DNA of 64,000 bases, from contig NZ_CP150265.1 of the NCBI RefSeq assembly GCF_037976325.1, positions 2,289,501-2,353,500 on the forward strand, written 5' to 3'. This DNA is from Paenibacillus sp. FSL K6-3182 (lineage in GTDB: Bacteria > Bacillota > Bacilli > Paenibacillales > Paenibacillaceae). The notes under the pieces were generated by a model that saw only the letters and a program-made list of their open reading frames with translations, made no database searches and was not told the origin of the DNA. Shown here one piece after another: positions 11,859 through 51,212 of the stretch. Position numbers and translations under genes: made by a program. Every line of letters begins with the position of its first letter. The stretch's first letter is position 1.

Positions 11859-11863
11859 CATCG

Positions 11864-11901
11864 TTCTCGGCGGTATTTCCTTCGTGCAGTACCGCCGAGA
11901 A
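11864..11901 (+). other. Intercistronic hairpin between NRPS and C39-like gene
   Basis: Two perfect 12-base arms (11864-11875 and 11890-11901) are separated by a 14-base loop. No T-run follows, so it is not a classic terminator. It lies 46 bases before the next start codon and could stabilise or process the operon mRNA, or set the expression ratio of the genes either side (inference). Confidence 0.7.
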
Positions 11902-11946
11902 ATGATTAAATGATACGAGTTTGGATCTATTAAGGAGGATAAGCGG

Positions 11947-12918: not shown

Positions 12919-12959
12919 CAAAATCAAATCGCTTCCTAACAAGGTGGTCGTTCCTAATT

Positions 12960-13685: not shown

Positions 13686-13703
13686 CAGAGAGGAGCAAAA
13701 AAT

Positions 13704-29722: not shown

Positions 29723-29898
29723 CTGAAAGCCCTCCATATCATGTATATCGTAATAGACGTCTCCACAAAGGATTAGTTGCTTAGATAACCTAAGCAATTT
29801 AATCCTTTTTTCATTTTTATTTTGTCAGGATGGGTGTAAACTGAAAGGAAAGATTGCTATACAGATATGAAAGTGTGGATAGGAGGCTGGACAGCTTT

Positions 29899-33392: not shown

Positions 33393-33693
33393 TTCAAATT
33401 CCCCTTTCGCAGCTTACCCCTCTATTATCTGTCTTTTTAGAAAAAGATGCATCTGTTTACTCGTTCTTTCAGCAAACTTTCAGCCACATACGAAACCGAT
33501 TGATGGGTTTAGTTTACAGGTTCTATTTTGCAAAAAATGAGGTAACCTTTATATTTATAAAGCATCTTATTCCTAGTGCGTTACTTAAACTGACGTAAAC
33601 TTGTTTTTTTGTATTGACTAGAGAGGAAACGTTTGTTAATTTATTGATTAATAGAAACTAATTATTGAATAATGATAATAAGGAGAATCGGAT
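33393..33693. promoter_or_regulatory. Promoter region of the ergothioneine-type catabolic operon
   Basis: This 301-base divergent gap contains a promoter-like pair for the + strand operon: TTGACT (33614-33619), 17-base spacer, TAATTT (33637-33642), followed by two AT-rich related elements (33641-33650 and 33661-33680) and AAGGAG before ATG 33694. The part next to the response regulator (33393-33600) shows no clear structure. Confidence 0.55.
33661..33680 (+). promoter_or_regulatory. Leader element, copy A (candidate IclR-type operator)
   Basis: ATTATTGAATAATGATAATA matches the element at 42007-42026 in 17 of 20 positions. Its first 13 bases are a perfect palindrome around a central G. It sits between the -10 and the ribosome site, where a bound repressor would block transcription. 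A partial extra copy, TTATTGATTA, lies at 33641-33650. Confidence 0.55.
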
Positions 33694-35349
33694 ATGGATC
33701 GAATTGTAGCTGCCAGAGGCGTTGAACTGCGTTGCAAAGGCTGGAGGCAGGAGGCGCTGCTGCGAATGCTAGAGAATGTTCTTGAAAATGGCGAAAACCA
33801 ACAAGAGCTTACTGTCTATGCTGCACTCGCCAAAGCGGCGCGTAATTGGGACTCCTATCATGCAATTGTCAGCACGCTCAAATCATTAGAGGAAGATGAG
33901 ACGCTGGTCATTCAATCAGGCAAGCCTATCGGTATTATGAGAACACATAAGTACGCTCCAATTGTTGTAATGGCGAATTGCAACATTGTTGGCAAATGGG
34001 CAACGAGCGACAATTTCTATAAATATCAAGAACAGGGATTAATCGTTTGGGGCGGTTTGACCGCGGCAGCTTGGCAATATATCGGTTCACAAGGTGTCAT
34101 ACAAGGAACCTATGAGATTTTTCAATCGATAGCTAGAATGCATTACGACTGCAATCTGGCTGGGAAGTTTATTTTGACAGCCGGTCTCGGAGGAATGGGC
34201 GGCGCACAGCCGCTTGCAGGAACGATGGCGGGTGCCGTTATTTTATGCGTAGAAGTGTCTGAGGCTAGAATCGACAAACGTATCGAGGTCGGCTATTTGC
34301 AGAAAAAAACGGCAAGCTTGGATGAGGCTTTGGAATGGATTCAAGCAGCTTGTGCGAATAAGGAGAGCTTGTCAGTCGGTCTTCTTGGCAACGCAGCCGA
34401 TATTTATCCTGAACTGATACGCAGAGGCATTCAGCCTGACGTTGTAACCGATCAGACGTCGGCGCATGATCTCATGTACGGATATATCCCTTCAGGCTAC
34501 AGTTTAGATAAGGTTGCTGAGCTGCGCAGAACAAAACCGGATCAGCTTCAAGCGGATGCAAGAGCTTCTATCGCATTAGAAGTTGAGGCGATGCTGGAGT
34601 TTCAGCGCAGAGGTGCAGTCGTTTTTGACAACGGCAACAATATTCGTTCGCAGGCTGTACAAAATGGCGTTACAAATGCTTTTGATATTCCTGTGTTTAC
34701 CGAAGCGTTTCTAAGACCGCTGTTTTCTCGTGCGATTGGGCCGTTCCGCTGGGTCGCTTTGAGCGGTGAGGTTTGTGATATTCGCAAGATTGATCAATAT
34801 ATATTGGAGCATTTCAGCGATAACGAGGTTGTAGTCAACTGGATTCGCTTAGCGAATCAGTATGTTCCGGTCGAGGGCTTGCCTGCGCGCATTGGCTGGT
34901 TCGGTCATGGCGATCGGACGAAGCTGGCACTAGCGGTGAACGCCATGGTTCAAGCTGGCGAGCTAAGCGGTCCCATTGCCTTCTCGCGTGATCACCTCGA
35001 TGCGGGAGCGATGGCTCACCCGAATATTATGACGGAGAACATGAAGGATGGCAGCGATGCAATATCGGATTGGCCGCTGCTTAATGCAATGATTAACTGT
35101 TCATCGATGGCTGATCTTGTAGCGATACACTCTGGCGGCGGCGGCTACAGCGGATATATGACAAGCGCGGGTGTCACGCTCGTTGCAGATGGCACATCCG
35201 ATGCAGAGCTTCGATTAAAAACGACGCTAGACAATGACACAGGCCTTGGCGTACTTCGATATGCTGACGCTGGTTATGAGGAAGCGCTGGATGAAGTAAG
35301 CAAAAAGGGAATACGTCGAATTGATACGAATCGGAAGGAGAATGCATGA
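33694..35349 (+). CDS. Urocanate hydratase paralogue (probable thiourocanate hydratase)
   Basis: 551 residues, urocanase family: RGVELRCKGWRQEALLRMLENVL, KAARNWDSYHAIV, IQSGKPIGIMRTH, the NAD+-binding TAGLGGMGGAQPLAGTM, FDNGNNIR, GPFRWVALSG, RDHLDAGAMAHPN, DGSDAISDWPLLNA. Two active-site differences from classical HutU: the Cys of LFCRG is Ser345 (RPLFSRAIGPFRW), and the HHGGGVGMGFSQH loop reads HSGGGGYSGYMTS. The substrate is therefore probably a modified urocanate. In the proposed pathway it hydrates 2-thiourocanate with internal redox to a thiohydantoin propionate. No hutG or hutI is nearby. First gene of the operon; overlaps the DUF917 gene by four bases. Confidence 0.85.
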   Translation: MDRIVAARGVELRCKGWRQEALLRMLENVLENGENQQELTVYAALAKAARNWDSYHAIVSTLKSLEEDETLVIQSGKPIGIMRTHKYAPIVVMANCNIVGKWATSDNFYKYQEQGLIVWGGLTAAAWQYIGSQGVIQGTYEIFQSIARMHYDCNLAGKFILTAGLGGMGGAQPLAGTMAGAVILCVEVSEARIDKRIEVGYLQKKTASLDEALEWIQAACANKESLSVGLLGNAADIYPELIRRGIQPDVVTDQTSAHDLMYGYIPSGYSLDKVAELRRTKPDQLQADARASIALEVEAMLEFQRRGAVVFDNGNNIRSQAVQNGVTNAFDIPVFTEAFLRPLFSRAIGPFRWVALSGEVCDIRKIDQYILEHFSDNEVVVNWIRLANQYVPVEGLPARIGWFGHGDRTKLALAVNAMVQAGELSGPIAFSRDHLDAGAMAHPNIMTENMKDGSDAISDWPLLNAMINCSSMADLVAIHSGGGGYSGYMTSAGVTLVADGTSDAELRLKTTLDNDTGLGVLRYADAGYEEALDEVSKKGIRRIDTNRKENA

Positions 35350-36446
35350 TGCGTGAATTAACGATAGAGGATGTAAAAGCAGCAGTAAGAGGAGGGGCAG
35401 TATTCGCATCCGGAGGCGGGGGCTGGGTTGATCATGGCCTTGAGATTGGCGGGGCAGCAGTAGGCATTGCTAGACCAAAGCTGGTTTCGGTTGATGAGCT
35501 GCCTGATGATGCCATTATTGTGACAGCGACGGCGATTGGCGCACCAGCAGGAAATGACTGGGAAATGTGGGGCATTGATTATATTAAGGCTGTTCAGCTG
35601 CTGATGGACAACTATGACGGCAAGGTTGTAGGGGTTATGACACCGCAAAACGGCATGTCGAGCACCATTAATGGCTGGCTTCCAGCTGCGGCGCTCGGTC
35701 TGGTTGTCGTTGATGCGACTGGTGATATTCGTGCGCATCCAACAGGCAAGATGGGTTCGATGGGCCTTGCTTCCCGCACCGATTATGAAACGATTCAGGT
35801 CGTTGTTGGCGGACGCAGAGATACGGGTTCTTATTTGGAGCTCGTTGTAAAAGGCACGCCAGCTAAGACATCGAACATTTTGCGGACAGCTGCAGATATG
35901 TCGGGAGGATTTATCGCTTCTGCTCGCCATCCTATTCCAGCATCTTATGTGAAGGAGCATGCAGCGATTGGCGGCATTTCGTTAGCGCTTGATCTAGGTT
36001 ATGCGATGATCGAGGCTGAGCCGAATGGCGCGGAAGCGATTATGGAAACGGTTTGCAGTAAAACAAATGGACAGATCATCGGTCGCGGTGTCGTTTTGAA
36101 AAAGGATGTTCATTATTCAGGCGCTTTCGATATTGGCACCATTACAATGGCGGATGGATCAGGCGGTCAACTGACGATGCATGTCATGAATGAATATATG
36201 GCTGTGGATGATGCTGACGGCAAGCGACTTACAACTTATCCGGATGTTATTACGACCTTTGAAGCAGCAACAGGTTTGCCGATCAGCGTAGGCGGCGTGA
36301 AGGAAGGGATGGAGATCGCATTGTTTGCAATCGACAAGCAATTTGTCCCTTTAAGCTCCAGCGTGAAAGACCCTACCGTATATCCAGAGGTGGAAAAGGC
36401 GCTTGGCATACCGCTTGCTGAATATGGCTTGAAGGGTATCGTCTAG
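35346..36446 (+). CDS. DUF917 family protein (probable thiohydantoin desulfurase)
   Basis: 366 residues covering a full DUF917 protein. Features: FASGGGGWVDHGLEIG at the N-terminus, TATAIGAPAGNDWEMWGIDYIKAVQLL, DATGDIRAHPTGKMGSMGL, and a C-terminal beta-domain (GRGVVLKKDVHYSGAFDIGTITMAD, LTTYPDVITTFEAATGLP). From memory the family has been renamed S-methyl thiohydantoin desulfurase; this could not be looked up. Between a urocanase paralogue and a hydantoinase it fits removal of the ring sulfur (as H2S or methanethiol), giving hydantoin-5-propionate. Translationally coupled to the urocanase gene. Confidence 0.8.
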   Translation: MMRELTIEDVKAAVRGGAVFASGGGGWVDHGLEIGGAAVGIARPKLVSVDELPDDAIIVTATAIGAPAGNDWEMWGIDYIKAVQLLMDNYDGKVVGVMTPQNGMSSTINGWLPAAALGLVVVDATGDIRAHPTGKMGSMGLASRTDYETIQVVVGGRRDTGSYLELVVKGTPAKTSNILRTAADMSGGFIASARHPIPASYVKEHAAIGGISLALDLGYAMIEAEPNGAEAIMETVCSKTNGQIIGRGVVLKKDVHYSGAFDIGTITMADGSGGQLTMHVMNEYMAVDDADGKRLTTYPDVITTFEAATGLPISVGGVKEGMEIALFAIDKQFVPLSSSVKDPTVYPEVEKALGIPLAEYGLKGIV

Positions 36447-36491
36447 CACGATCATTCTAATTTATCGATATCTACTAAGAAGGTGCCTGTT

Positions 36492-38051
36492 ATGAATGAA
36501 GTTATAGATGGTATCGGTTTGGAGGATACACAGTCGTCCGAACGATTGGTTACGCTTGATGGCAATACGCTCACGATTCGCGAGCTTGAGCAAATTGCAT
36601 TGGAAGGTTATCGCGTGGAGTGCTCGCAGCATGCATTGAAGCGAGTAGAGGAGGCTCATGTTCTCATTCATGAGCTTGCCGCCGAAGGCATTCCGATCTA
36701 TGGGCTAAACCGCGGCGTAGGTCTTAATAAAGATCGAACCATTACAACGGAGATGTATGAACAGTTTAACCGCAATCTTATTTATTCCCATTCGGCGGCT
36801 ATTGCGCCTGCTGCTTCTGAGCAGCAGGTGCGAGCCGTGCTCGTTGCCAGGCTAAATTCATTGCTTATTGGTTGTACAGGTGTGCAGCCTGCGGTCGTAC
36901 GCATGTATCAGGATTTGCTTAACGCAGCTATCCATCCGATCATTCCGCTTCGAGGATCTGTTGGCGCAGGCGACATCTCGGTTTTGTCTCATATCGGCTT
37001 AACGATGATGGGAGAAGGAAATGTGAATTACAAAGGCCAAATGATGAGCGCGGAAATGGCTTTTCAAGCTGAGGGGATTACTCCTGTGAAGCTGGGGCCA
37101 AAGGATGCACTGGCCATTGTAAGCTCCAATGCGCTGTCCGCGGGCACTGGTGCACTGGCAGCAGCAGCGGCTTTAAAGCTGCTCGGTACGGCAGATGCTA
37201 TTTTTGCATTGTCGCTTGAAGCGCTTCGGGGATGCATGAATCCGCTTGATCCGGCGTTATTTGAGGTAAGGCCATTCGAGGGAGCTGCAGCAAGCGCGGC
37301 AAATGTGAGAAGTTATTTGCAAGGCGGAACGCTGCAGCAGTCAAGTAAAAACGATAAAATTCAAGATCCGCTCAGCTTTCGCAGTGCTTGCCATGTACAT
37401 GGCGCAGCTCGTGATGCGCTTGCTTATGCGACAAGGCTGCTGCTCATTCAATTAAACGGATCTGATGATAATCCTTGTGTATTAATAGATGAAAGAAGAG
37501 TAGTGCCCTCCTCAAACTTTGACGTAACCTCATGGACCGTGGCGTTTGAGATGGTAGCGATAGCGCTAAGTCATGTATCCAAAATAAGCTGCTACAGATC
37601 ACTTAAGCTCGGAACGCCATCCTTTACCGGTCTGGAGAGGTTTCTAGCCCCAAATCCTGAGTCTATCGCTTTCGGAACGCTTCAAAAAACATACACCTCC
37701 CTTGATGCGGAAATCCGCTTGCTCTCTAATCCGGTATCTGCTGATTATTTATCGCTGGCAGGCGACATGGAGGATCATGCAAACAATACACCGCTCGTCA
37801 TTCGTAAGCTCGAAGACATTATCGATCGCTTAACCTACATTATAGGGATGGAAGCGCTGCATGCAGCCCAAGCCATTGATTTACGCGGTATACAAGCTGA
37901 ATTAGGCATAGGCTCGGCCGCTGTTTATTCACAAATTCGCAGTGCAGTGCCTATGTTGACGGAAGATCGTCCGCTAACCCCAGATATTTCTGCTATGTAT
38001 GAGCTTATTCGCAGCGGCATTCAATTGAGAGGAGGAGCAAATGGTGAATAA
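36492..38051 (+). CDS. Histidine ammonia-lyase paralogue lacking the MIO serine (probable ergothionase)
   Basis: 519 residues from ATG 36492, with AAGAAGG 8 bases upstream (a GTG at 36483 overlaps that site). HAL fold: YGLNRGVGLNKD, RLNSLLIGCTGVQ, FEVRPFEGAAASAANVR, IQDPLSFRSACHVHGAARDAL, NGSDDNPCV. The MIO-forming loop, normally GSVGASGDLAPLAH, here reads GSVGAGDISVLSH (residues 155-167): the Ser of Ala-Ser-Gly is deleted, so the MIO group cannot form. Trimethylammonium is already a good leaving group, and ergothionases are, from memory, MIO-free members of this superfamily. Proposed reaction: ergothioneine to thiourocanate plus trimethylamine. Overlaps the next gene by 11 bases. Confidence 0.85.
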   Translation: MNEVIDGIGLEDTQSSERLVTLDGNTLTIRELEQIALEGYRVECSQHALKRVEEAHVLIHELAAEGIPIYGLNRGVGLNKDRTITTEMYEQFNRNLIYSHSAAIAPAASEQQVRAVLVARLNSLLIGCTGVQPAVVRMYQDLLNAAIHPIIPLRGSVGAGDISVLSHIGLTMMGEGNVNYKGQMMSAEMAFQAEGITPVKLGPKDALAIVSSNALSAGTGALAAAAALKLLGTADAIFALSLEALRGCMNPLDPALFEVRPFEGAAASAANVRSYLQGGTLQQSSKNDKIQDPLSFRSACHVHGAARDALAYATRLLLIQLNGSDDNPCVLIDERRVVPSSNFDVTSWTVAFEMVAIALSHVSKISCYRSLKLGTPSFTGLERFLAPNPESIAFGTLQKTYTSLDAEIRLLSNPVSADYLSLAGDMEDHANNTPLVIRKLEDIIDRLTYIIGMEALHAAQAIDLRGIQAELGIGSAAVYSQIRSAVPMLTEDRPLTPDISAMYELIRSGIQLRGGANGE

Positions 38052-39411
38052 CAGCTATGATCTCGTCATTTATGGAAATCTCGTACTTCCAGGGGGCGTC
38101 GCATACCATTCCGCAGTTGGAATCAAGGACGGTAAAATTGTTCGTATTGGTGATAGAGACGACACGGACATGGCTGCCGCAACAGAAAAGATTAATGCCG
38201 AAGGCAGCTATGTGCTGCCTGGTGCAGTCGACGCTCATGTCCATTGTTACAGCTCACTTGACGAAGGGTTTTACACAGCGAGTGCGGCTGCAGCTGCCGG
38301 AGGCGTAACAACGATTATTGAAATGCCTTATGATGCGACGGGGATGATCTGTACGCTTTCTGCTTTCGAGGAAAAAAAACAGCAGCTGGAACAGCAATCC
38401 ATCGTTGATATGGCGATGCTTGTTACGATTCATAAGCAAGATGGTTATGAGCATATCCGCCAGCTTGCCGAGGCCGGTGCATGCGGCTTTAAAGTATCGA
38501 TGTTTAATACAGATTCCTTCCGCTTTCCGCGAATAGATGACGGACAATTGCTTGATTCGTTTGCGGTTATTGCTGAAACAGGTTGTCCGGTTGGCGTGCA
38601 TGCGGAAAACGATGAGATCGTCCGCAGATATATTGATAAATATCGCTCCCAAGGTGCAGATCCACGTTCGCATGGCTGGAGCAGGCCGAAAGTAAGTGAA
38701 TCAGCCGCAGCGCTGACCGCTATGGAGCTTGCTTATGAGACAGGAGTCAAACTGCATTTATATCATTGTACGTATCCGCGTATTTTTCAGCTGGTGGACT
38801 ATTTCCGTTCAATCGGAGCGAAAGTCACTGCGGAAACCTGTACCCACTATTTGACGCTAAGTGAAGAAGATATGCCGCGTTTGCAGGCGAAAGGTAAAAT
38901 CAATCCACCGCTTCGCACGAAGCAGGATAAAGAGGATTTATGGGACTTATTGAAAACCGGATCGATCGATATGATTACTTCCGATCATGCTCCGTGGCTA
39001 ATTGGGCGTAAATCAGACGCGGATATTTTTAATAATGCTTCAGGTGCTCCCGGAGTGGAACATTTGCTTCCGATTATTTACAGCGAGGGCGTGGCTAAAG
39101 GGAAATTGGCGCTTACCGACATGGTCAGGCTGATCAGTCAAAGGCCTGCTGATGTATTTGGGCTTGGTCATCGCAAAGGAAGATTAACAGATGGTTACGA
39201 TGCGGATATCGCGATTATCGATCCTGCTGCAGCTTGGACGCTAGATGAGCGTGAGCTTCAATCGAGTGCTGGCTGGAGTGCTTATAACGGAATGAGTATG
39301 CAAGGTAAAGTAACGCACACGCTCGTAAGGGGAACGCTTGTGTATGAAGCGGGAGCTGTTACCGGCAAGGCGGGTCATGGCGAATTTATTAGAGCAGAGC
39401 ATCTTGCTTAA
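38041..39411 (+). CDS. Hydantoinase/dihydropyrimidinase-like amidohydrolase
   Basis: 456 residues, cyclic amidohydrolase family (hydantoinase, allantoinase, dihydroorotase). Metal ligands: DAHVH (His66, His68), carboxylated Lys in GFKVSMF (Lys151), His in VGVHAEND (His187), His in LYHCTYP (His242), catalytic Asp in TSDHAPW (Asp315). C-terminal beta-sandwich motif GRLTDGYDADIAIID. It opens five- or six-membered cyclic amides; in this pathway it would hydrolyse hydantoin-5-propionate to N-carbamoyl-glutamate. ATG 38041 follows GAGGAGG and overlaps the lyase stop, so translation is coupled. Confidence 0.88.
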   Translation: MVNNSYDLVIYGNLVLPGGVAYHSAVGIKDGKIVRIGDRDDTDMAAATEKINAEGSYVLPGAVDAHVHCYSSLDEGFYTASAAAAAGGVTTIIEMPYDATGMICTLSAFEEKKQQLEQQSIVDMAMLVTIHKQDGYEHIRQLAEAGACGFKVSMFNTDSFRFPRIDDGQLLDSFAVIAETGCPVGVHAENDEIVRRYIDKYRSQGADPRSHGWSRPKVSESAAALTAMELAYETGVKLHLYHCTYPRIFQLVDYFRSIGAKVTAETCTHYLTLSEEDMPRLQAKGKINPPLRTKQDKEDLWDLLKTGSIDMITSDHAPWLIGRKSDADIFNNASGAPGVEHLLPIIYSEGVAKGKLALTDMVRLISQRPADVFGLGHRKGRLTDGYDADIAIIDPAAAWTLDERELQSSAGWSAYNGMSMQGKVTHTLVRGTLVYEAGAVTGKAGHGEFIRAEHLA

Positions 39412-39438
39412 TCATTTTGCGAGAGAGGAGTGAATGGG

Positions 39439-40713
39439 ATGGGTAGCAAAATGGATAGACTGGTGCCAAGTGTATCTCGAATGATGTCTGATATTGAACA
39501 TCTATCGATGTTTGTTGATCCATCAAAACCCGGCTGGACGCGTCGTCCATTTACGAAGCAGTATGCTGACGGCAGGTGCTGGCTGACCGAGAAAATGGAG
39601 GAAGCGGGCCTGTCTGTTTCGCTGGATGCAGCTTCAAATTTGATAGGCAGCTTGTCTGGCAGCGATCTGGATTTAGCGCCTATCATGATTGGCTCCCATA
39701 CAGATACCGTTACTGGCGGCGGGCGATTCGATGGAATCATAGGAGTGCTAGCCGGCATAGAAATTGCCCGTCTACTTCAACAATCAGGAACGCAGCTTAG
39801 GCATCCGCTGCAAATTGTCGATTTCACGGCAGAGGAGCCGAGTGAGTTTGGCATCTCCACGATTGGGAGCAGAGGGATGGTCGGCAATTTGCCTGAAGCG
39901 ATGCTGGAGCTTAGCGACGATACTGGGCTGAAGCTTAGTGATGCGATTAATCAACAAGGCGGAAATGTCGAACGGTTGACAAGTGAGGCGAGGCAGGTGG
40001 GTGATGTAGCGCTCTACCTTGAGCTTCATATCGAGCAAGGTCCGGTGCTGGAGCAATCAGGCCATCAACTTGGAGCGGTGCTCGGTATCGTAGGTATTCA
40101 TCGCTATCGTGTCACGCTCAAAGGTGCGCCAAATCATGCAGGGACGACGCCGATGACGCTTCGTAACGATGCGCTGGCAGGCTTTTGCGAGATTGGTTTA
40201 GCATTTGAACGTCACTGCAACGATCATGCAAGCGTAGCCGTAGGCACGATCGGCAAAGTGACGAATGAGCCGAATGCATCCAATGTCGTGCCCGGCCTCG
40301 TTCGTTTTGAGCTTGAAATCCGTTCGCTAGATCGTAAGGTGGCTGACGCGGTTTACGCCGCTTTTGCTGCGGAGACGATCCAGATTGCTGCAAGGCGAGG
40401 CCTTCGTTTGTCGCTTGAGCTGCTGTCGAAGTCAGATTCCGTCATTGTCAAAAAGTCTGTGCTGGGTGGAGTGCTTGCAGCCTGTGCTTCTGTTGCTCCA
40501 GCTATTCACCTCGCAAGCGGGGCGGGGCATGATGCGAACCAGCTTGCGCGCATTGCGCCAATCGGCATGATCTTTGTTCCTAGCAAGGATGGCAGAAGCC
40601 ATTGTCCCGAGGAATGGACCGATGAGGATGATATTGCTGCGGGAACGCAGGCTCTAGCCGCCGCATTGCTTTATTTTGATAAGGAGGATTTAAGCGGGTG
40701 GCATGATGGCTAA
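39439..40713 (+). CDS. M20 amidase, hydantoinase/carbamoylase family (1)
   Basis: 424 residues from ATG 39439 (AGGAG 8 bases upstream; an in-frame GTG at 39430 abuts that site). Bimetal motifs: IGSHTDTVTGGGRFDGIIGV, FTAEEPSEFGIS, LELHIEQGPVLE, GAPNHAGTTPM (dimer-interface lid His), and GRSHCPEEW with the last His ligand. The family hydrolyses N-carbamoyl-amino acids, allantoate and ureidoglycolate. Proposed role: N-carbamoyl-glutamate to glutamate, CO2 and NH3. The sequence after the EE pair (PSEFG) departs from the more common GVRFG seen in the next gene. Confidence 0.87.
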   Translation: MGSKMDRLVPSVSRMMSDIEHLSMFVDPSKPGWTRRPFTKQYADGRCWLTEKMEEAGLSVSLDAASNLIGSLSGSDLDLAPIMIGSHTDTVTGGGRFDGIIGVLAGIEIARLLQQSGTQLRHPLQIVDFTAEEPSEFGISTIGSRGMVGNLPEAMLELSDDTGLKLSDAINQQGGNVERLTSEARQVGDVALYLELHIEQGPVLEQSGHQLGAVLGIVGIHRYRVTLKGAPNHAGTTPMTLRNDALAGFCEIGLAFERHCNDHASVAVGTIGKVTNEPNASNVVPGLVRFELEIRSLDRKVADAVYAAFAAETIQIAARRGLRLSLELLSKSDSVIVKKSVLGGVLAACASVAPAIHLASGAGHDANQLARIAPIGMIFVPSKDGRSHCPEEWTDEDDIAAGTQALAAALLYFDKEDLSGWHDG

Positions 40714-41956
40714 GGCTCAGCATGTACAGGTCAACGGTAAACGGTTATGGGATTCGATTCAAGCTTTGGGTTTAATCGGCGCAGATCCAAGCGGCGGTGT
40801 AACACGGCTATCACTCAGCAATGAGGAATTAATAGCGAGGCAATTTATTATCAGTGAAATGAAAGCAGCAGGACTAGAAGTCAGGCAGGATGAGGCGGGC
40901 AATCTGATTGGGCGATTGGAGGGGGAGGAGCAACGGGCAGGAGCTGTAGTGACGGGCTCTCATATCGATACGGTCATTCAAGCAGGCCAATTCGATGGAG
41001 CGCTTGGTGTTCTTGGCGGTATTGAGGTTTTGCGAACGATCAAGGAGCAGTCAATCAGGCATGATAGGCCTTTCGAGGTTATTTGCTTTACGGACGAAGA
41101 GGGCGTACGCTTTGGAGCCGGCTATTTGGGAAGCCGTGCGATGGCAAATACTTGGGATGAAAAGTGGCTGGATCTTACTGATTCTTCCGGCATGTCGCTT
41201 CGCGAAGCGATGGAGCATAGCGGCTTGAACCCCGATTACGCAGCACTTGCAAGTCGCAGCTCAGAATCCATTCATGCCTATGTTGAGCTTCATATTGAGC
41301 AAGGACGAGTTCTGGAAGAGCTGAATAAAGCGGTTGGCATTGCAACAGCGATTTATGGACATCGCTGGTTCGAAGTGACCATTCATGGACGAGCGGACCA
41401 TGCGGGAACAACGCCCATGAAGTTAAGACAGGATCCGATGCCTGCCGCAGCAGAAGTTGTGCTTGCTGTGGAACAAATCGCAGTGAAGCATGGGGGCGTC
41501 GTAACAACAGGGACGTTTAAGCTTGCGCCAGCCGCAATAAACGTAATTCCGGGTGAAGCGGTGTTTACACTCGATGTTCGGCATGAATCCTTGGAGTCGC
41601 TCAATAAGCTGGAGGTTGCGATAAAAGGCGAGTTGTCACGCCTTACTGCAGCAAGAGGGCTGACCTACGCTATCCGGACATTAGATGCTGCTGTGCCTGT
41701 ACAAACGTCGGAGTATATTGCAAAAGTGATTACAGATAGCTGTGAGGATGCTGGTTTGCCTGCGGAGTATATGATTTGCGGCGCAGGTCATGATGCGGTG
41801 GTCATGAGTGAATTAGCGGAAATGGGGCTCATCTTGGTACGTTCAAAGGATGGTATCAGTCATCATCCACTTGAATGGAGCAGCCGAGAGGACTGTGAAG
41901 CAGGAGTAAACGTACTGCTGCAAACGCTTATTCAGCTAGGAAATGATGTAAATTAA
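40703..41956 (+). CDS. M20 amidase, hydantoinase/carbamoylase family (2)
   Basis: 417 residues, a diverged paralogue of the previous gene with all metal motifs intact: TGSHIDTVIQAGQFDGALGV, CFTDEEGVRFGAGYLGSRAM, ELHIEQGRVLEE, GRADHAGTTPM, GAGHDAVVMSELAEMG, DGISHHPLEW. It overlaps the first paralogue by 11 bases; AAGGAGG lies 15 bases before the ATG. Why two are needed is unclear. They may differ in stereochemistry or substrate, for example thiocarbamoyl against carbamoyl, or S-methylated intermediates. Confidence 0.87.
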   Translation: MMAKAQHVQVNGKRLWDSIQALGLIGADPSGGVTRLSLSNEELIARQFIISEMKAAGLEVRQDEAGNLIGRLEGEEQRAGAVVTGSHIDTVIQAGQFDGALGVLGGIEVLRTIKEQSIRHDRPFEVICFTDEEGVRFGAGYLGSRAMANTWDEKWLDLTDSSGMSLREAMEHSGLNPDYAALASRSSESIHAYVELHIEQGRVLEELNKAVGIATAIYGHRWFEVTIHGRADHAGTTPMKLRQDPMPAAAEVVLAVEQIAVKHGGVVTTGTFKLAPAAINVIPGEAVFTLDVRHESLESLNKLEVAIKGELSRLTAARGLTYAIRTLDAAVPVQTSEYIAKVITDSCEDAGLPAEYMICGAGHDAVVMSELAEMGLILVRSKDGISHHPLEWSSREDCEAGVNVLLQTLIQLGNDVN

Positions 41957-41965
41957 TAATTCCGA

Positions 41966-41994
41966 TTGACATAATGGGGTATAAAGTTTAATAA
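41966..41994 (+). promoter_or_regulatory. Promoter of the ABC-transporter half
   Basis: TTGACA (41966-41971), 17-base spacer, TAATAA (41989-41994), just after the second carbamoylase stop. It suggests the importer and IclR genes can be transcribed separately from the enzymes. Confidence 0.6.
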
Positions 41995-42006
41995 TAATGG
42001 TAACAA

Positions 42007-42026
42007 GTTATTGATTAGTGATAATA
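42007..42026 (+). promoter_or_regulatory. Leader element, copy B (candidate IclR-type operator)
   Basis: GTTATTGATTAGTGATAATA, matching 33661-33680 in 17 of 20 positions, lies between the -10 and the AAGGAGG ribosome site of the transporter operon. Same relative placement as copy A, supporting a common regulator. Confidence 0.55.
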
Positions 42027-42052
42027 CATAAGGGAAGGAGGATGACAAACGA

Positions 42053-42697
42053 GTGAATGTATTCCTCGAAGCTTATGACTATGTGAATGCTAACAGCGAC
42101 AGATTTTTGGAAGCGGTCAAGGTGCATTTAAGCATAAGTTTCTACGCGCTCCTTATTGCTTTCGTCGTATGTGTGCCTCTCGGTATACTATGTGCCAAGA
42201 AAGAGTGGCTGACCGGTCCGATTATGGGGCTGTTCAACTCCTTGCGAGTCATCCCAAGCCTTGCGGTTTTAGTCATTATTTTACCGATCATGGGAACTGG
42301 CTTTGCACCGGCATTAGTTGCATTAACGCTGCTTGCTTGTCCGCCTATTCTCATTAATACATACATGGGCTTTAGAGGTATTGAGCCAGCGATTATTGAA
42401 GCTGCTTCAGGCCTCGGTATGGGAGAGAAAATGATTATGCGGAAAATCGAACTGCCGTTAGCTGCTCCGCTGCTGCTGTCAGGACTAAAAACAGCCGCCG
42501 TAGAAGTTATCGCCAGTGCAACATTGGCCGCATTCATCGGAGGAGGCGGGCTGGGAACGTTTATTATTAACGGTCTTGGCATGTACAAATTCTCATTGCT
42601 GCTTGTCGGGGCGCTGCCGGTAGCGCTGCTAGCTATTTTATCGGAGATCGGATTTGCAGGAATTGAAAGAGCAGTAACCAAATATCAGCGTGTATAA
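42053..42697 (+). CDS. OpuC-type ABC permease (1)
   Basis: 214 residues, about five to six TM segments. Quaternary-amine-uptake permease signature: VCVPLGILCAKK, LFNSLRVIPSLAVLVIILPIMGTGFAPALVALTLLACPPILINTYMGFRGIEPAIIEAASGLGM (EAA loop), ATLAAFIGGGGLGTFIINGL. GTG start at 42053, AAGGAGG 11 bases upstream. Pairs with the second permease at 44643. The transporter family imports glycine betaine, choline and carnitine; the pneumococcal and Helicobacter EgtUV systems of this family take up ergothioneine (from memory). Confidence 0.9.
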   Translation: MNVFLEAYDYVNANSDRFLEAVKVHLSISFYALLIAFVVCVPLGILCAKKEWLTGPIMGLFNSLRVIPSLAVLVIILPIMGTGFAPALVALTLLACPPILINTYMGFRGIEPAIIEAASGLGMGEKMIMRKIELPLAAPLLLSGLKTAAVEVIASATLAAFIGGGGLGTFIINGLGMYKFSLLLVGALPVALLAILSEIGFAGIERAVTKYQRV

Positions 42698-42715
42698 TGA
42701 AAGGGGAAAATTCAG

Positions 42716-43621
42716 ATGAAAAAGAAATGGGTAAGCTTGGCATTGTTGATTATAAGTGTGGTACTCGTTATTAGCGCTTGTTCTTCCAAGGGAGGTTCAG
42801 GCAAAGAAAAGATTAAAGTCGGCTCGAAAAACTTTACGGAATCATTGATTTTGGGTGAAATGTACGCACTGGCACTTGAGGACGCAGGGTACAAGGTAGA
42901 TCGCAAGCTCAATCTTGGCGGCACACTCGTTGCCCATGAAGCGCTCAAAAAAGGCGACATCGACTTTTACCCGGAATATACAGGAACAGGCTTAATCAAC
43001 GTATTGGAATTGCCGCCAAACTCCGATGCCAAAACCGTATATGATACTGTAGCAAAAGGCTACAAAGAGAAATTCAACCTGGTTTGGCTGGAGCCAACAA
43101 ACGCAAACGATTCACAAGGTCTTGTTACAACAAAGAAAATTGCTGAAAAATATAATCTTTACAAAATATCAGATTTGGTGAAATTAGCTCCTGAGCTTAA
43201 CCTCGCTGCTGTTCCTGAGTTTGAAGAGCGCGAAGACGGATTAAAAGGACTAAATACTTTCTACGGTAAAATGAACTTCAAAAGCATCAAGCTGTTTGAT
43301 TACGGCATCAAATACCGTGTAACGCTAGATGGTGAAGCGGATGTAACTGTTGGCTTCACGACTGATGGCGATTTGACGAATCCGGATCTTGTATTGCTTG
43401 AGGATGATAAGAAGTTTTGGCCTCCTTACTTCGTAGCTCCAGTGCTTCGCGGCGAGCTGAACGAGAAGGACCCTGAAATTGCTAAAGTGTTGAACAAAAT
43501 TTCTGCAAAGCTGGATAACACAACTGTTCAGAAGCTGAACGCGCAAGTGGATATCGACAAGAAAGAATACGCGGATGTAGCGAAGGCATTTTTGGAAGAG
43601 CAAGATTTATTGAAAAAATAA
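42716..43621 (+). CDS. OpuC-type substrate-binding lipoprotein
   Basis: 301 residues. Lipoprotein signal with lipobox VISAC (Cys about 22). Family motifs: VGSKNFTESLILGEMYALALEDAGY, LGGTLVAHEALKKGDIDFYPEYTGTGL, TTKKIAEKYNLYKISDLVK, VGFTTDGDL, PYFVAPVLRGE. Members bind compounds with quaternary ammonium groups in an aromatic cage. Located between the two permease genes, 18 bases after the first. Proposed ligand: ergothioneine or a methylated relative (inference from gene neighbours). Confidence 0.9.
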   Translation: MKKKWVSLALLIISVVLVISACSSKGGSGKEKIKVGSKNFTESLILGEMYALALEDAGYKVDRKLNLGGTLVAHEALKKGDIDFYPEYTGTGLINVLELPPNSDAKTVYDTVAKGYKEKFNLVWLEPTNANDSQGLVTTKKIAEKYNLYKISDLVKLAPELNLAAVPEFEEREDGLKGLNTFYGKMNFKSIKLFDYGIKYRVTLDGEADVTVGFTTDGDLTNPDLVLLEDDKKFWPPYFVAPVLRGELNEKDPEIAKVLNKISAKLDNTTVQKLNAQVDIDKKEYADVAKAFLEEQDLLKK

Positions 43622-43639
43622 TTCATAATTAAATGCAGC

Positions 43640-43666
43640 GGGGTTTCTCCATATTGGGGAAGCCCC
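43640..43666 (+). other. Hairpin after the binding-protein gene
   Basis: GGGGTTTCTCC and GGGGAAGCCCC form an imperfect stem around ATATT with no T-run. Hairpins after binding-protein genes commonly protect that part of the mRNA and favour excess binding protein over ATPase and permease. Confidence 0.5.
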
Positions 43667-43689
43667 CTTCCTACAGGAGTTGATATAGA

Positions 43690-44646
43690 ATGAGCAAAGA
43701 GGCCATTATTTTTGAGCAGGTGTCCAAAACATTTCCAAAGTCTGCGAATCCCTCCGTTAATGAAACGAGCCTTATTATTCCGCAAGGCTCCTTTGCTACG
43801 ATTCTAGGTGCATCAGGATGCGGCAAAACTACCTTGCTAAAAATGGTAAACCGAATTATTGAACCGACCGCAGGCACGATTTCGATATTTGGCAAAGACA
43901 TTCGCAGCTTGCCCGTGACGGAGCTTCGCCGAAGCATCGGTTATGTAATCCAGCAGGTAGGGTTGTTTCCGCATTTGTCGATTGAACAAAATATTGCAAC
44001 GGTCCCTAATATACTGGGCTGGGAACGCCAAAAAACAGCGGAGAGAATCGATTATTTAATGGATCTTGTTCATTTGCCAGCAAGCTATAAGAAGCTTTAT
44101 CCGCGTCAGCTGTCAGGTGGACAGCAGCAGCGTGTAGGGATTGCTAGAGCGATGGCAGGTGATCCAGCTATATTGCTGATGGATGAACCGTTTGGAGCGA
44201 TTGACGCGATTACGCGTACGAAGCTGCAGGATGATTTTAAGCAAATACAACGTGAGCTTGGCAAAACCGTATTGTTTGTGACGCATGACGTGGAAGAGGC
44301 GATGAAGCTCGGCGATCATATGATCGTGATGAACGAAGGAACGATTCAGCAATATGATACACCGCTTGCCATCATGTCCAAGCCGAGTAATGCTTTCGTA
44401 TCGCAACTGATTCAAGCCGATGATTTGTTCCAACAGCTTCACCTGATTAGGGCAGAAGAGAAAATGATTGAGCTGGAAGAACCGGCTGGATCTGATATTC
44501 CTCGCATTCCCGCTGGTGATAGTCTAAAGTCGGCGCTTCAAATTCTACTGCAGCAAAACGCACCTTATGTGGCTGTGGAAAATACCGAGCATGAAATCAT
44601 TGGTAAAATAACGCTTGAGCAATTGAAGCTGCAGAACGGCAGGTGA
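43690..44646 (+). CDS. OpuC-type ABC ATPase with partial CBS tail
   Basis: 318 residues. Walker A GASGCGKTT (40-48), Q-loop IQQVGLFPH, signature LSGGQQQR, Walker B AILLMDEPFGAID, H-loop FVTHDVEEA. The C-terminal about 60 residues (SLKSALQILLQQNAPYVAVENTEHEIIGKIT) look like one CBS motif, often an osmotic or second-messenger sensing part in the OpuA/OpuC class. Powers import through the two flanking permeases. Overlaps the second permease gene by four bases. Confidence 0.93.
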   Translation: MSKEAIIFEQVSKTFPKSANPSVNETSLIIPQGSFATILGASGCGKTTLLKMVNRIIEPTAGTISIFGKDIRSLPVTELRRSIGYVIQQVGLFPHLSIEQNIATVPNILGWERQKTAERIDYLMDLVHLPASYKKLYPRQLSGGQQQRVGIARAMAGDPAILLMDEPFGAIDAITRTKLQDDFKQIQRELGKTVLFVTHDVEEAMKLGDHMIVMNEGTIQQYDTPLAIMSKPSNAFVSQLIQADDLFQQLHLIRAEEKMIELEEPAGSDIPRIPAGDSLKSALQILLQQNAPYVAVENTEHEIIGKITLEQLKLQNGR

Positions 44647-45290
44647 GAGGCATGCTTGACTATTTAACCCGCCATTATGATGATTTGTTAACCTCGTTGC
44701 TGGAGCATATTTATCTCACCTTCGTTTCGTTATTTATCGCACTTGTTATTGCGCTGCCATTAGGTTATTGGTTGTCGAGGCATCGACGGATTTCCGTTCC
44801 TATTTTGTCCGTACTCGGCATTATCTATGCGATTCCAAGCCTCGGGATGTTCGCTTTGCTTATTCCGCTAGTTGGCCTCGGCAGCAAGCCGGCGATTATC
44901 GCATTAGTTGTATATAGTCAGCTGATTTTGGTGCGAAATGTCATTTCAGGATTTCAATCGATTGAACCTTCGATCATTGAAGCAGCCAAAGGAATGGGTT
45001 ATGGCAAGTGGAGGCTGTTCGTCCATATCGAGCTGCCGCTGGCACTGCCCGTCATAATTGGCGGCATTCGTATAGCATCGGTATCCGTAATAGGTATCGC
45101 AACCATAGCGGCGTGGATTAATGCCGGCGGGTTAGGCGGTATTTTATTCGAAGGCTTATATCAAAACTCAGTACCAAAAATGGTATGGGGCACGCTGCTC
45201 GTATCGTTATTAGCTTTATCTACAAATACGATTTTGCTGCAAGTTGAAAAATCAACGATGCGCAATGCACGCGGAGAACAAAGGGTATGA
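44643..45290 (+). CDS. OpuC-type ABC permease (2)
   Basis: 215 residues, about five to six TM segments: LTFVSLFIALVIALPLGYWLSRH, SVLGIIYAIPSLGMFALLIPLVGLGSKPAIIALVVYSQLILVRNV, EAA loop IEPSIIEAAKGMGYGKWRLFVHIELPLALPVIIGGIRIASV, AAWINAGGLGGILFEGL. Completes the importer with the permease at 42053. Start overlaps the ATPase stop (translational coupling). Confidence 0.92.
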   Translation: MRGMLDYLTRHYDDLLTSLLEHIYLTFVSLFIALVIALPLGYWLSRHRRISVPILSVLGIIYAIPSLGMFALLIPLVGLGSKPAIIALVVYSQLILVRNVISGFQSIEPSIIEAAKGMGYGKWRLFVHIELPLALPVIIGGIRIASVSVIGIATIAAWINAGGLGGILFEGLYQNSVPKMVWGTLLVSLLALSTNTILLQVEKSTMRNARGEQRV

Positions 45291-45341
45291 TATACTGATC
45301 CTTATAATTGACTACTATTGTAAATATTTTGAGGTGCAATG

Positions 45342-46082
45342 ATGAATGGAACTCAAACATTAGGACGTGCTATCGATATTTTATTCGTGCTCGCTGAATC
45401 GGGTGCAACGCTCACGGTCAGTGAAATTGCGGAGAAGGTAGGCATCCCCGACAGTACCGCATATCGTTTTATTCAAACGCTTATAAAAAATGGTTTCGTA
45501 GAGCGTAAGGGCAGAGGGCAAATTGGTTTAGGTCTGCGTATTTTTGATTTAGCGAGAAGCTTATCGCAGCAAATCGAAAAGGAGCTTCTTACGATCGCGA
45601 GGCCGATTATGGAAGACCTCACCGCACTTACGAATGAAACGACGGTGCTTTTTGTCCGCTCCGGTTCCAAAGCCATTTGTATCGAAAATGTAACGAGTAA
45701 ACGTTTGATTAGGCTTTCTATTGAAAATGGAAGAATATTGCCGCTTAATTCAGGCGCTTCAGGGAAAACGCTGCTCGCTAATGAAAATGACAAAGTTATT
45801 GAAGAAATGTGCAAGCTTTTTGGCGAAGATGCCGGTAAACCTTTGCTTTTGCAAGAAATGCATCGTATTAGGGAAGCGGGTTATTGCTTTACTTTGGGTG
45901 AGGTGGATACGGATGCTTTTGCAATTGCTGCCCCTATTTTTGATCCTCAGAAGCGAATCGTAGCCAGCTTATCTGCAGCAGGACCTATCCATCGGCTTAA
46001 TGAGAAGGAAATTCCAAATGTGATCCAATATGTAAAGGCAGCTGCATCACAAATTTCGTGCAAGCTTGGTGGTTTGGCATAA
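45342..46082 (+). CDS. IclR-family transcriptional regulator
   Basis: 246 residues from the second of two adjacent ATGs (GAGGTG 5 bases upstream). N-terminal winged helix (LGRAIDILFVLAESGATLTVSEIAEKVGIPDSTAYRFIQTLIKNGFVER), then the IclR effector domain (ETTVLFVRSGSKAICIENV, LNSGASGKTLLA, REAGYCFTLGEVDTDAFAIAAPIFD, VASLSAAGP). Expected to control the upstream catabolic and transport genes in response to substrate or an intermediate. The shared leader elements at 33661 and 42007 are its most likely sites (inference). Last gene of the operon. Confidence 0.92.
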   Translation: MNGTQTLGRAIDILFVLAESGATLTVSEIAEKVGIPDSTAYRFIQTLIKNGFVERKGRGQIGLGLRIFDLARSLSQQIEKELLTIARPIMEDLTALTNETTVLFVRSGSKAICIENVTSKRLIRLSIENGRILPLNSGASGKTLLANENDKVIEEMCKLFGEDAGKPLLLQEMHRIREAGYCFTLGEVDTDAFAIAAPIFDPQKRIVASLSAAGPIHRLNEKEIPNVIQYVKAAASQISCKLGGLA

Positions 46083-46227: not shown

Positions 46228-47349
46228 ATGCAACAACATAAAAAGGAAATTGGATTGGATGAACAACGCAATAAGATTGGGAGGTTTGCTGCAAGGTACA
46301 TAGGCGCAGCGTTGCTCGCGATCACATTGATGTTCAGTATGCCTCATACTGGTCAAGCGATTGGCAAGAATGCTAAGGGTCCAGATGTCTATGTTATTCA
46401 AGGCATGCTGAAATCCCTGGGCAGCTATTCTGGTAAAATTGACGGTCGTTATGGGCCTTCTACAGTGCGCGGCGTAAAATATTATCAAAAAACACATGGC
46501 TTGCCTACAACAGGCGCCGTAGATGCTAAAACGCTACAATCGATTTCTTATTCTTATTCGGAGAAGAAAGCAGCAACGAAGGCAAAAACGCAAGCAAAAT
46601 GGAAAGGTAAAGCAAAATCACTCGGCAACGGTAAAGGCGCTGGCAATGGAGCTGGTGGCGGTGCAGGTGGCGGTGCAGGCGGCGGAGCTGGTGGCGGTGC
46701 AGGCGGCGGAGCTGGTGGTGGCGCAGGCGGCGGTGCAGGCGGCGGAGCTGGTGGTGGCGTAGGCGGCGGAGCTGGTGGTGGCGCAGGCGGCGGAGCTGGT
46801 GGCGGTGCAGGCGGCGGAGCTGGCGGCGGAGCTGGTGGTGGCGCAGGCGGCGGAGCTGGTGGCGGTGTAGGCGGCGGAGCTGGTGGCGGTGTAGGCGGCG
46901 GAGCTGGTGGTGGCGCAGGCGGCGGAGCTGGTGGCGGTACAGGCGGTGGAGCTGGTGGCGGTGCAGGCGGTGGAGCTGGCAGAGGTTATGGTGAGAACCA
47001 AGGCAAAGGCGGCGGATTTGGCGGAGGCCAAGGAGAAAACCGTGGCAAAGGCGGCGGCATTGGCGGAGGCCAAGGAGAAAACCGTGGCAAAGGCGGCGGC
47101 ATTGGCGGAGGCCAAGGAGAAAACCGTGGCAAAGGCGGCGGCATTGGCGGAAACCGTGGCAAAGGCAGCGGCATTGGCGGAGGTCAAGGAGAAAACCGTG
47201 GCAAAGGCGGCGGTATTGGCGGAGGTCAAGGTAATAACCAAGGTATCGGTGGAGGCAACTCTAATAACCAAAGCAACAAAGCTCCATCCGAAAACCAAGG
47301 CAAAGGCGGCGCTCAAACGGAAAACCAAGGGCCGAATGGAAGCCATTAA
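46228..47349 (+). CDS. Secreted peptidoglycan-binding protein with Gly-rich repeats
   Basis: 373 residues. After a basic N-terminus comes a hydrophobic segment (IGAALLAITLMFSM) and a probable cleavage near GQAIG. The PG_binding_1 domain spans about 50-110 (VYVIQGMLKSLGSYSGKIDGRYGPSTVRGVKYYQKTHGLPTTGAVDAKTL). A Lys-rich linker is followed by about 28 GAGG-type tetrapeptides (46651-46986, a few with Val or Thr for Ala) and about five copies of a 14-residue GGGQGENRGKGGGI unit. Probably a structural cell-wall or spore-layer protein. Repeat length may vary between strains or be misassembled. Long antisense frames here are repeat artefacts. Confidence 0.8.
   Translation: MQQHKKEIGLDEQRNKIGRFAARYIGAALLAITLMFSMPHTGQAIGKNAKGPDVYVIQGMLKSLGSYSGKIDGRYGPSTVRGVKYYQKTHGLPTTGAVDAKTLQSISYSYSEKKAATKAKTQAKWKGKAKSLGNGKGAGNGAGGGAGGGAGGGAGGGAGGGAGGGAGGGAGGGAGGGVGGGAGGGAGGGAGGGAGGGAGGGAGGGAGGGAGGGVGGGAGGGVGGGAGGGAGGGAGGGTGGGAGGGAGGGAGRGYGENQGKGGGFGGGQGENRGKGGGIGGGQGENRGKGGGIGGGQGENRGKGGGIGGNRGKGSGIGGGQGENRGKGGGIGGGQGNNQGIGGGNSNNQSNKAPSENQGKGGAQTENQGPNGSH
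46651..46986 (+). repeat. 12-base tandem repeat encoding (GAGG)n
   Basis: About 28 in-frame units of GGCGGAGCTGGT / GGCGGTGCAGGC type, varying at third positions and at Ala-to-Val (GTA) or Thr (ACA) changes; most units fall into 24-base pairs. Lies inside the peptidoglycan-binding protein gene. Confidence 0.9.
46995..47235 (+). repeat. 42-base tandem repeat encoding GGGQGENRGKGGGI
   Basis: About five near-identical copies, one shortened by loss of the GGGQGE part (around 47140-47160). Immediately follows the 12-base repeat in the same gene. Confidence 0.85.
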
Positions 47350-47523: not shown

Positions 47524-48273
47524 TTATGCGATTTGTGTAATAACAAGATGAGCTGAAACAGATCTTGTTCCTCCAGCGAGCGGTGTGATCGTAAGTGCCG
47601 TGGAATTGCCCGCAGGGTTTCGCACGGTGAGTATTGAATTAATGACAGTCGTGTGTACAAGAGCCATTCCTACAATTTGAGAAGTACCTGTTGCTCGGCC
47701 AACCACTGTATAAGCTAGATCAGCGCCATTAATGGTTAAAATCAGCTGCCCCGGTTCGGTCACACTTACTTGAAACAAAATCTGATACGTTCCAATTACA
47801 GCTAAGTTAAATGTAGTAGCACCAGTGCGGGTAATGTTAGTTCCGCTAGTAGGTCCATTTTGCGGAAAACTTACATCTGCACCGACAGCAACAGTTGCTG
47901 CATTATCAGGCGGCATCAATGCAAAAAAATCAGCGAAGCTTAATACTCCTCCGGCTACGCCAGTTGCGCCAGCAGCTCCAGGTGCCCCATTAGTACCAGG
48001 TGCGCCATTAGTGCCAGTCGCACCAGTTGCGCCAGCAGCTCCAGTCGCCCCATTAGTGCCAGTCGCACCAGTTGCTCCTACTGAACCAGGAATACCCTGG
48101 GGTCCTTGAGGTCCGGTCGGTCCTACCGGAGCAGTTACATTCACTTGAGGAGGAGGACATGTTACCTTCACAATTTTTTTAACAACTCTATTACGGCATT
48201 TCTTTCTGTTTTTTGATTTGCATACTATTACACGTATCTTTTTGCAGCGATTTCTTTTATTCAAACAACTCAC
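47524..48273 (-). CDS. Collagen-like protein with BclA-type C-terminal domain
   Basis: About 250 residues; GTG 48273 fits the AGGTAGGTG ribosome site better than the in-frame GTG at 48282. Very basic Cys/Lys/Arg-rich N-terminus (about 1-40), then about 20 Gly-X-Y triplets ([20 protein letters not shown], then GTNGA and GAAGA units), then a beta-rich C-terminal domain of about 130 residues with the pattern of the exosporium BclA C-terminal trimer ([46 protein letters not shown]). Likely a trimeric filament on the spore surface (inference from family). No classical signal peptide, consistent with mother-cell assembly. Monocistronic. Confidence 0.85.
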
Positions 48274-48450
48274 TAAAGACACCTACCTATAGATGGTTTA
48301 GTGTACGTTTATACCTTTTTTTAAGGTTGGACTAATAACCATTTTTAACTAGACTAAAAACTATTTTAAGAAAAATGGGTTAATGATAGGGTTATTTCGC
48401 CGCCCAAAAGTTGGGTCTATTAGACTTTTTATGGAATATAGGATATGATT

Positions 48451-50127: not shown

Positions 50128-50133
50128 GAAGCA

Positions 50134-50180
50134 AAAAAATAGGACAAAGCAGACTGCTACAGCTGCTTGTCCTATTTTTT
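50134..50180 (+). terminator. Terminator
   Basis: AAAAAATAGGACAAAGCAG opposed to CTGCTTGTCCTATTTTTT, between the SLH-hydrolase gene and the convergent AraC gene. Confidence 0.88.
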
Positions 50181-50244
50181 ATTGCCAATAGAAGGCAGAC
50201 CCTTAGAATTATACCCTTATACCTTAGTTTCTTACATCGTCACA

Positions 50245-51135: not shown

Positions 51136-51212
51136 TCAATTTTTTTGAAGGATTATTAATATAGTAAAGGATTGTTCTCTTAAATAAAAGATGATTAAAA
51201 GGGGAATGGAAG

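Follow-up and report, generated by a model that had tools for sequence, protein, structure and literature searches.

An eleven-gene Paenibacillus operon that most likely imports ergothioneine and breaks it down to glutamate

Which compound is consumed by an operon in which relatives of histidine-degrading enzymes stand beside an OpuC-type importer? This question is raised by a window of Paenibacillus sp. FSL K6-3182, by which we mean the whole stretch of 64,000 nucleotides that was analyzed (contig NZ_CP150265.1, positions 2,289,501-2,353,500; the host genome is one contig of 7.56 megabases (Mb)). At 33694-46082 the window carries eleven genes that a first-pass annotation had read as an operon for the uptake and catabolism of ergothioneine, little described in a Paenibacillus-like host. 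Ergothioneine is a stable antioxidant of fungi (mushrooms) and some bacteria, and it is of practical interest which organisms destroy it in soils and in the gut. As described below, the gene observation was confirmed and the biochemical reading is well supported, while the claim of novelty did not hold.

Gene content and the predicted route

The eleven genes are uninterrupted frames on the forward strand, several of them overlap, and the largest gap between neighbors is 96 bases; a divergent two-component pair lies upstream. The Pfam domains along the operon are, in order, urocanase, S-Me-THD, aromatic amino acid lyase, amidohydrolase, M20 (twice), permease, OpuAC, ABC ATPase, permease and IclR. 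Every gene that the first-pass annotation listed is present as an open forward-strand frame at the coordinates given below. The annotation had also proposed comparing the neighborhoods of DUF917-type (desulfurase) genes. The best 80 of 84 desulfurase relatives gave 79 loci: 14 with the layout of the window (A), 10 with that of locus L025 or a similar one (B) and 55 rhizobial. The full eleven-gene set is found in the same order at 13 of the 14 A-type loci, and the other, L022, lacks the second carbamoylase. Such conservation shows that the arrangement is not due to chance, and the eleven-gene operon is real. The A-type loci are not all independent, since two pairs are nearly identical (L015 with L017, and L013 with the window); the nearest named relative among the loci, Paenibacillus sp. 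FSL A5-0031, has a desulfurase 100% identical to that of the window. An acyl-CoA-dehydrogenase-like gene (29854-31089) was considered as a further member and rejected: it lies beyond the opposite-strand two-component pair and is matched in one of the 14 A-type loci, the near-identical L013.

Read from its gene families, the operon most likely imports ergothioneine and breaks it down to glutamate. The OpuC-type ABC importer would bring ergothioneine into the cell, where the MIO-less lyase would expel trimethylamine and leave thiourocanate. The urocanase paralog would add water to thiourocanate to give a thiohydantoin propionate, and the DUF917-type enzyme would take the sulfur off this compound, yielding hydantoin-5-propionate. 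The hydantoinase would open the ring to N-carbamoyl-glutamate, which the ErtE-type carbamoylase would convert to glutamate, and the IclR protein probably controls the operon through a conserved dyad just upstream of the promoter. The sequences themselves show the gene content, its conserved order, the families of hydratase, desulfurase and ErtE, and the missing MIO triad. We infer each of the reactions in this strain, as well as the substrates of importer and hydantoinase, and consider it highly probable that the locus is a self-contained operon through which ergothioneine serves as a nutrient.

Three of the six enzymes (hydratase, desulfurase and ErtE) score above NCBIfam equivalog cut-offs for ergothioneine catabolism (model scores are given throughout as bits/curated cut-off, NCBIfam release 20; Pfam domain matches as bit scores). 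The thiourocanate hydratase, the urocanase paralog (33694-35349), reaches 1017.8/930 with NF058530, and it shares 78% identity over 546 residues with 7NED, a solved "urocanate hydratase". The thiohydantoin desulfurase of the DUF917 / S-Me-THD family (35346-36446) reaches 601.5/440 with NF058529, and the M20 protein ErtE, an N-carbamoyl-L-glutamate amidohydrolase by family (39430-40713), reaches 546.7/520 with NF058540. A second M20 protein (40703-41956), a putative carbamoylase or amidase found at 13 of 14 A-type loci, is below the cut-off of the ErtE model (411/520) and above that of subfamily NF006771 (458.4/399). The putative hydantoin-5-propionate amidohydrolase, or hydantoinase (38041-39411), is diverged from curated ErtD, and its best models are the two ErtD families.

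The remaining enzyme, the lyase (36483-38051), is a predicted ergothionase. In ammonia-lyases an Ala-Ser-Gly triad forms the MIO cofactor. The lyase of the window has the loop GSVGAGDI against GSVGASGD in histidine ammonia-lyase, and because this loop has no such triad the term "MIO-less" of the first-pass annotation is correct. Its closest solved relative is ergothionase 6s7j, which we take to be the Treponema denticola enzyme (E-value 5.3e-136), and the next match is a probable histidine ammonia-lyase (5.4e-67); with the hutH model it scores 385.6/539, below the cut-off. The triad is also missing from 6s7j, where the loop reads GEGDI in place of GAGDI. In an alignment of 74 lyases (the window and 73 of the 79 loci, the other six having no lyase match at 1e-20) the triad occurs in none, and Lys402, Glu430, Ser214 and Asn216 are invariant. 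The Lys and Glu positions are the same in 6s7j, while Val takes the place of the Lys in histidine ammonia-lyase 1gkj; the lysine is presumably catalytic. A single hutH-like gene and a single urocanase-like gene are present in the host genome, both inside the operon, so they are not spare copies of a histidine pathway. EgtD, the one route of ergothioneine synthesis searched for, had no match in the host genome, so no synthesis of ergothioneine is expected along that route.

With three enzymes passing curated models and the lyase nearest to ergothionase, two other substrates were weighed and rejected on NCBIfam model scores. The first-pass annotation had allowed for S-methyl-ergothioneine, whose breakdown would release methanethiol in place of sulfide. 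Pfam does name the desulfurase superfamily after the S-methyl enzyme (the DUF917-type domains are now S-Me-THD_N and S-Me-THD_C, the abbreviation presumably standing for S-methyl thiohydantoin desulfurase), and the hydratase and desulfurase both score well in absolute terms with the S-methyl models. These scores nevertheless stay below the cut-offs (790.6/880 for S-methyl thiourocanate hydratase, 307.9/450 for S-methyl thiohydantoin desulfurase) while the non-methyl models pass, and for this reason the S-methyl substrate is disfavored; the identity of the hydratase to 7NED also speaks against it, and we regard it as very improbable. We give still less credence to a variant histidine-utilization operon acting on histidine or a methylhistidine. 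It would account for a lyase and a hydratase that are members of the HutH and HutU superfamilies, the latter passing the broader hutU model (714.7/375), but not for a lyase that lacks the MIO triad and falls below the hutH cut-off, nor for a hydratase with a better and more specific model, nor for a desulfurase standing in the place of HutI.

The importer and the candidate operator

Four genes would form the importer: permease 1 (42053-42697; PF00528, 97.1 bits), an OpuAC-type quaternary-amine binding lipoprotein (42716-43621; PF04069, 213.6 bits), the ATPase (43690-44646; PF00005, 119.8 bits; below the cut-off of the proV subfamily, 292.4/326.6) and permease 2 (44643-45290; PF00528, 72 bits), the last in place in all 14 A-type loci. 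The binding protein belongs to the same family as that of EgtU, which PMC9732360 describes as a separate transporter of Firmicutes with permease and binding domain in one protein (EgtUBC); in the window the two are separate genes. At 14 positions taken from that paper, the pocket of EgtUC was compared with 25 operon rows, namely the binding protein of the window and those of all 24 A and B loci; position 243, where the EgtUC row differs from the wild type of PMC9732360, was not used. The 15 A-type rows do not differ from one another at any of the 14 positions. The window keeps Lys242, Thr275, Thr296, Glu375, Arg379 and Tyr443, and these include residues said in that paper to contact the imidazole nitrogen and the carboxylate. 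It has Phe for Gly244, Tyr for Phe293, Asp for Asn339, Gln for Tyr341 and Phe for Tyr419. Gly244 is stated to be invariant and Phe293 to be present in all EgtUs (PMC9732360); neither Gly at 244 nor Phe at 293 occurs in any of the 25 operon rows. Judged by EgtU's stated signature, the importer of the window is not an EgtU.

Because these signature residues are absent, ergothioneine import by the operon's importer is plausible but unproven; it is the likeliest role, assigned by association with the neighboring genes. This association was surveyed among relatives of the binding protein at E-values of 1e-70 or lower, counting a desulfurase within 12 kilobases (kb). A desulfurase was found near 17 of the 20 binding proteins of at least 69% identity, none of the eight at 58-68%, seven of the nine at 53-57% and none of the 14 below 53%. 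Among the three exceptions in the closest class, one lies beside a partly deleted operon (G278) and two are in genomes with no desulfurase match (G292 and G295). Some importers of the same clade without the pathway (L098) have the same pocket, so the pocket alone is no proof of substrate.

Several observations weigh against an operon dedicated to ergothioneine. On the enzyme side, no NCBIfam ergothionase model was among the matches of the lyase, and the hydantoinase is under both ErtD cut-offs (493.1/650 and 455.3/600). As for the importer, EgtU Gly244 and Phe293 are replaced by Phe40 and Tyr88, Gln and Phe stand at the positions of the EgtU cage tyrosines, the best solved matches of the binding protein are acetylcholine, nicotine and serotonin sensors, ahead of EgtUC, and 3 of its 20 closest relatives have no desulfurase nearby. 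The missing signature and these three places would fit enzymes that degrade ergothioneine beside an importer that mainly carries another betaine, with ergothioneine entering otherwise, and PMC9732360 does present EgtU as a distinct, permease-fused transporter of Firmicutes. We think this unlikely, since all four importer genes are in place in 14 of 14 A-type loci and the six pocket residues listed above are kept; of the three other PF04069 matches in the genome, moreover, one is glycine-betaine-like beside its own permease and one is NitT/TauA-like (by reading). The importer offers a test case for the repeated evolution of bacterial ergothioneine uptake.

The last gene of the operon encodes an IclR-family regulator (45339-46082; PF01614, 113.4 bits; PF09339, 55.2 bits) and is in place in all 14 A-type loci. 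Its candidate operator is a 15-base-pair imperfect dyad, GTTACTTAAACTGAC (33580-33594), of pattern GTNANTTNAANTNAC, conserved upstream of the first gene, and we infer that the IclR protein binds it. Exact GTNANTTNAANTNAC lies at -109 to -116 of the first gene in the window and in 10 of the 14 A-type loci. L016, L022 and L035 keep GTTACTTAA with the dyad broken (the start codon of L022 is imprecisely assigned), and L017 differs. The 1.63 Mb of locus DNA contain 11 exact copies of the pattern, ten at this position and an additional one in L034, again upstream of the operon; the B and rhizobial loci hold no exact copy, and the B loci a few with one mismatch. A narrower pattern, GTTACTTAANNTNAC, has two sites in the whole host genome. 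The second, between a NikR-like gene and a peptide/nickel-type ABC importer (identified by reading translations), was considered as a regulon member and rejected. Downstream of the dyad, TTGAC is invariant in all 15 aligned rows, and a candidate sigma-A promoter, TTGACT - 17 - TAATTT (33614-33642, forward strand), was read by eye; the consensus scan does not list it. Scanning for promoters and terminators gave results no better than shuffles (20 promoter-like hits against 20.3, 15 terminator-like against 13.1), and the window contains no RNA family at the gathering score and no tRNA.

Two layouts and their complementary losses

The chemistry is not new. A five-step bacterial catabolism of ergothioneine was reportedly published by Beliaeva, Leisinger and Seebeck in 2021, and judged by gene content the window has the same reaction set. 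Paenibacillus sp. Root444D2 has a protein that matches 7NED, a structure presumably solved in the course of that work, at 100% identity over 546 residues; the locus of this protein, L025, brings hydantoinase, carbamoylase, hydratase, desulfurase, lyase and IclR together in one cluster. The claim that such an operon was little described in a Paenibacillus-like host thus fails, because 7NED matches a protein of an equivalent cluster and the pathway is in print. L025 differs from the window in gene order (importer genes, monooxygenase, DUF427, EamA, hydantoinase, carbamoylase, hydratase, desulfurase, lyase, IclR), in having one carbamoylase, and in a hydantoinase above the cut-off of NF058539 (783.8/650). 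The novelty lies in the A layout, the non-EgtU importer, the candidate operator and the evidence from complementary losses. A search for literature on this layout, on Paenibacillus ergothioneine catabolism and on hercynine breakdown found none, a weak negative as most subscription journals were outside its coverage.

The A layout is marked by a hydantoinase under both ErtD cut-offs, usually a second carbamoylase, a non-EgtU importer and the upstream dyad. The full L025 order is present in seven of the ten B loci; the other three are either reduced (L029 and L031) or hybrid (L028). Loci L033 and L034 have broken desulfurase matches, L034 also in hydratase and permease, and these breaks may be sequencing errors. 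For trees, 7 of the 55 rhizobial loci were used and the desulfurase rows of L033 and L034, at fewer than 300 residues, were dropped from the 32. In the resulting desulfurase tree (30 rows) the A rows are on one side of one branch with 100/99 support. The hydantoinase tree also has A as one group, at 47/0 support and with a long-branch warning, its deep branches not being settled, so that it does not establish a separate origin for the hydantoinase of A. The rhizobial thiohydantoin desulfurase clusters (55 of the 79 loci) likewise keep hydantoinase, carbamoylase, desulfurase and hydratase together, with a lyase relative in 51 of 55, but their lyase is about 30% identical to that of the window and placed first; same-strand matches to importer genes are absent, and three loci have an ATPase match on the other strand.

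The B-type clusters have features of their own. A relative of the NtaA/DmoA-type flavin monooxygenases is found in nine of the ten loci (L025:2331-5539 and eight others), and a DUF427 double-domain protein and an EamA exporter in eight each. One further genome has a B-type cluster with a lyase fragment only and no hydantoinase or carbamoylase matched (L101, G355:C32) and, at another place, a lyase with a B-type binding protein and no desulfurase (L097, G355:C11).

We surveyed 394 genomes of the host's family, scoring the best three to five candidates in most of them, so that places can be missed. A desulfurase above the curated cut-off was found in 35 of the 394; a 2026 paper still regards ergothionase as confined to a limited set of genera (PMC13405746). 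The survey gave 42 desulfurase places at 316 bits or more, of which 39 are over the cut-off and three are split genes; matches from 301 bits down were excluded. A lyase lies within 10 kb at 40 of these 42 places, and one of these desulfurases within 10 kb at 40 of 43 lyase places. This close linkage of the two genes favors the ergothioneine reading.

Two relatives have lost part of an A-type operon. In G364 (L095 and L100) the operon retains hydratase, lyase, hydantoinase, both carbamoylases and IclR, a 17-residue remnant of the desulfurase in L095 marks a deletion, and of the importer only a C-terminal piece of one permease is left, with no binding protein, ATPase or other permease matched. 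The only desulfurase match of this genome at an E-value of 1e-10 lies at another locus, with a B-type importer, where no hydratase, lyase, hydantoinase or carbamoylase was matched. G278 (L099 and L102) has an A-type operon without desulfurase and lyase; its only desulfurase is on another contig beside a lyase, and a further lyase is on a third contig. Both are draft assemblies, with estimated contamination of 3 and 2%, but the deletions are internal to contigs, and there is no N in the sequences. That the A-layout desulfurase is lost and the genome's only full copy is at a second locus, in two relatives, supports one shared pathway. The simplest reading, drawn from these two genomes, is that the two layouts work in a single pathway, sharing its intermediates, and that redundancy has decayed in a complementary manner; the losses are natural evidence for this common function of A and B.

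A related operon without desulfurase and the neighboring genes

A ten-gene cluster without a desulfurase occurs in three other genomes (L103, at 2649-14476, L104 and L107). At L103 it contains an AraC regulator, an OpuC-type importer, a lyase, HutU (989.2/375), HutI (509.2/298), an M20 amidase below the ErtE cut-off (423.9/520) and an amidohydrolase below every cut-off shown (hutF, 198.3/413). The cluster was looked for at seven places beside L103: two, L104 and L107, match all ten genes, and the other five have importer genes at most. The L103 lyase is above the hutH cut-off (611.2/539), yet its loop reads GSVGYLTHMAH and the MIO triad is deleted, as in all three clusters. A MIO-free lyase needs a good leaving group. 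Taking into consideration that: (i) the lyase is MIO-free, (ii) a quaternary-amine importer adjoins it and (iii) a normal urocanate pathway stands behind it, our best guess is that this cluster would encode a hercynine trimethylamine-lyase pathway.

Tentatively, and with slightly less than even confidence, we propose that both belong to a Paenibacillaceae family of "histidine-betaine" operons, each combining a MIO-less trimethylamine lyase with its own OpuC-type importer. The A layout would be the ergothioneine branch, its importer being a second and independent answer to ergothioneine uptake with a rebuilt amine cage (Asp132, Gln134 and Phe214), and the L103, L104 and L107 clusters would act on hercynine, passing urocanate to HutU and HutI.

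Elsewhere in the window, 63-16916 holds non-ribosomal peptide synthetase genes, encoding a 3931-residue protein (four condensation, three AMP-binding and four carrier stretches) and one of 1070 residues. Downstream of the operon, the gene at 46228-47349 has a peptidoglycan-binding domain followed by a long GGGA repeat, and the other frames opened by this repeat are probably not genes. A collagen-like repeat protein follows at 47524-48282 (PF01391, 36.8 bits), and two glycoside hydrolases are encoded within 48502-53519, one of family 18 with an S-layer domain and one of family 95; the gene of an AraC-type regulator separates them on the opposite strand.

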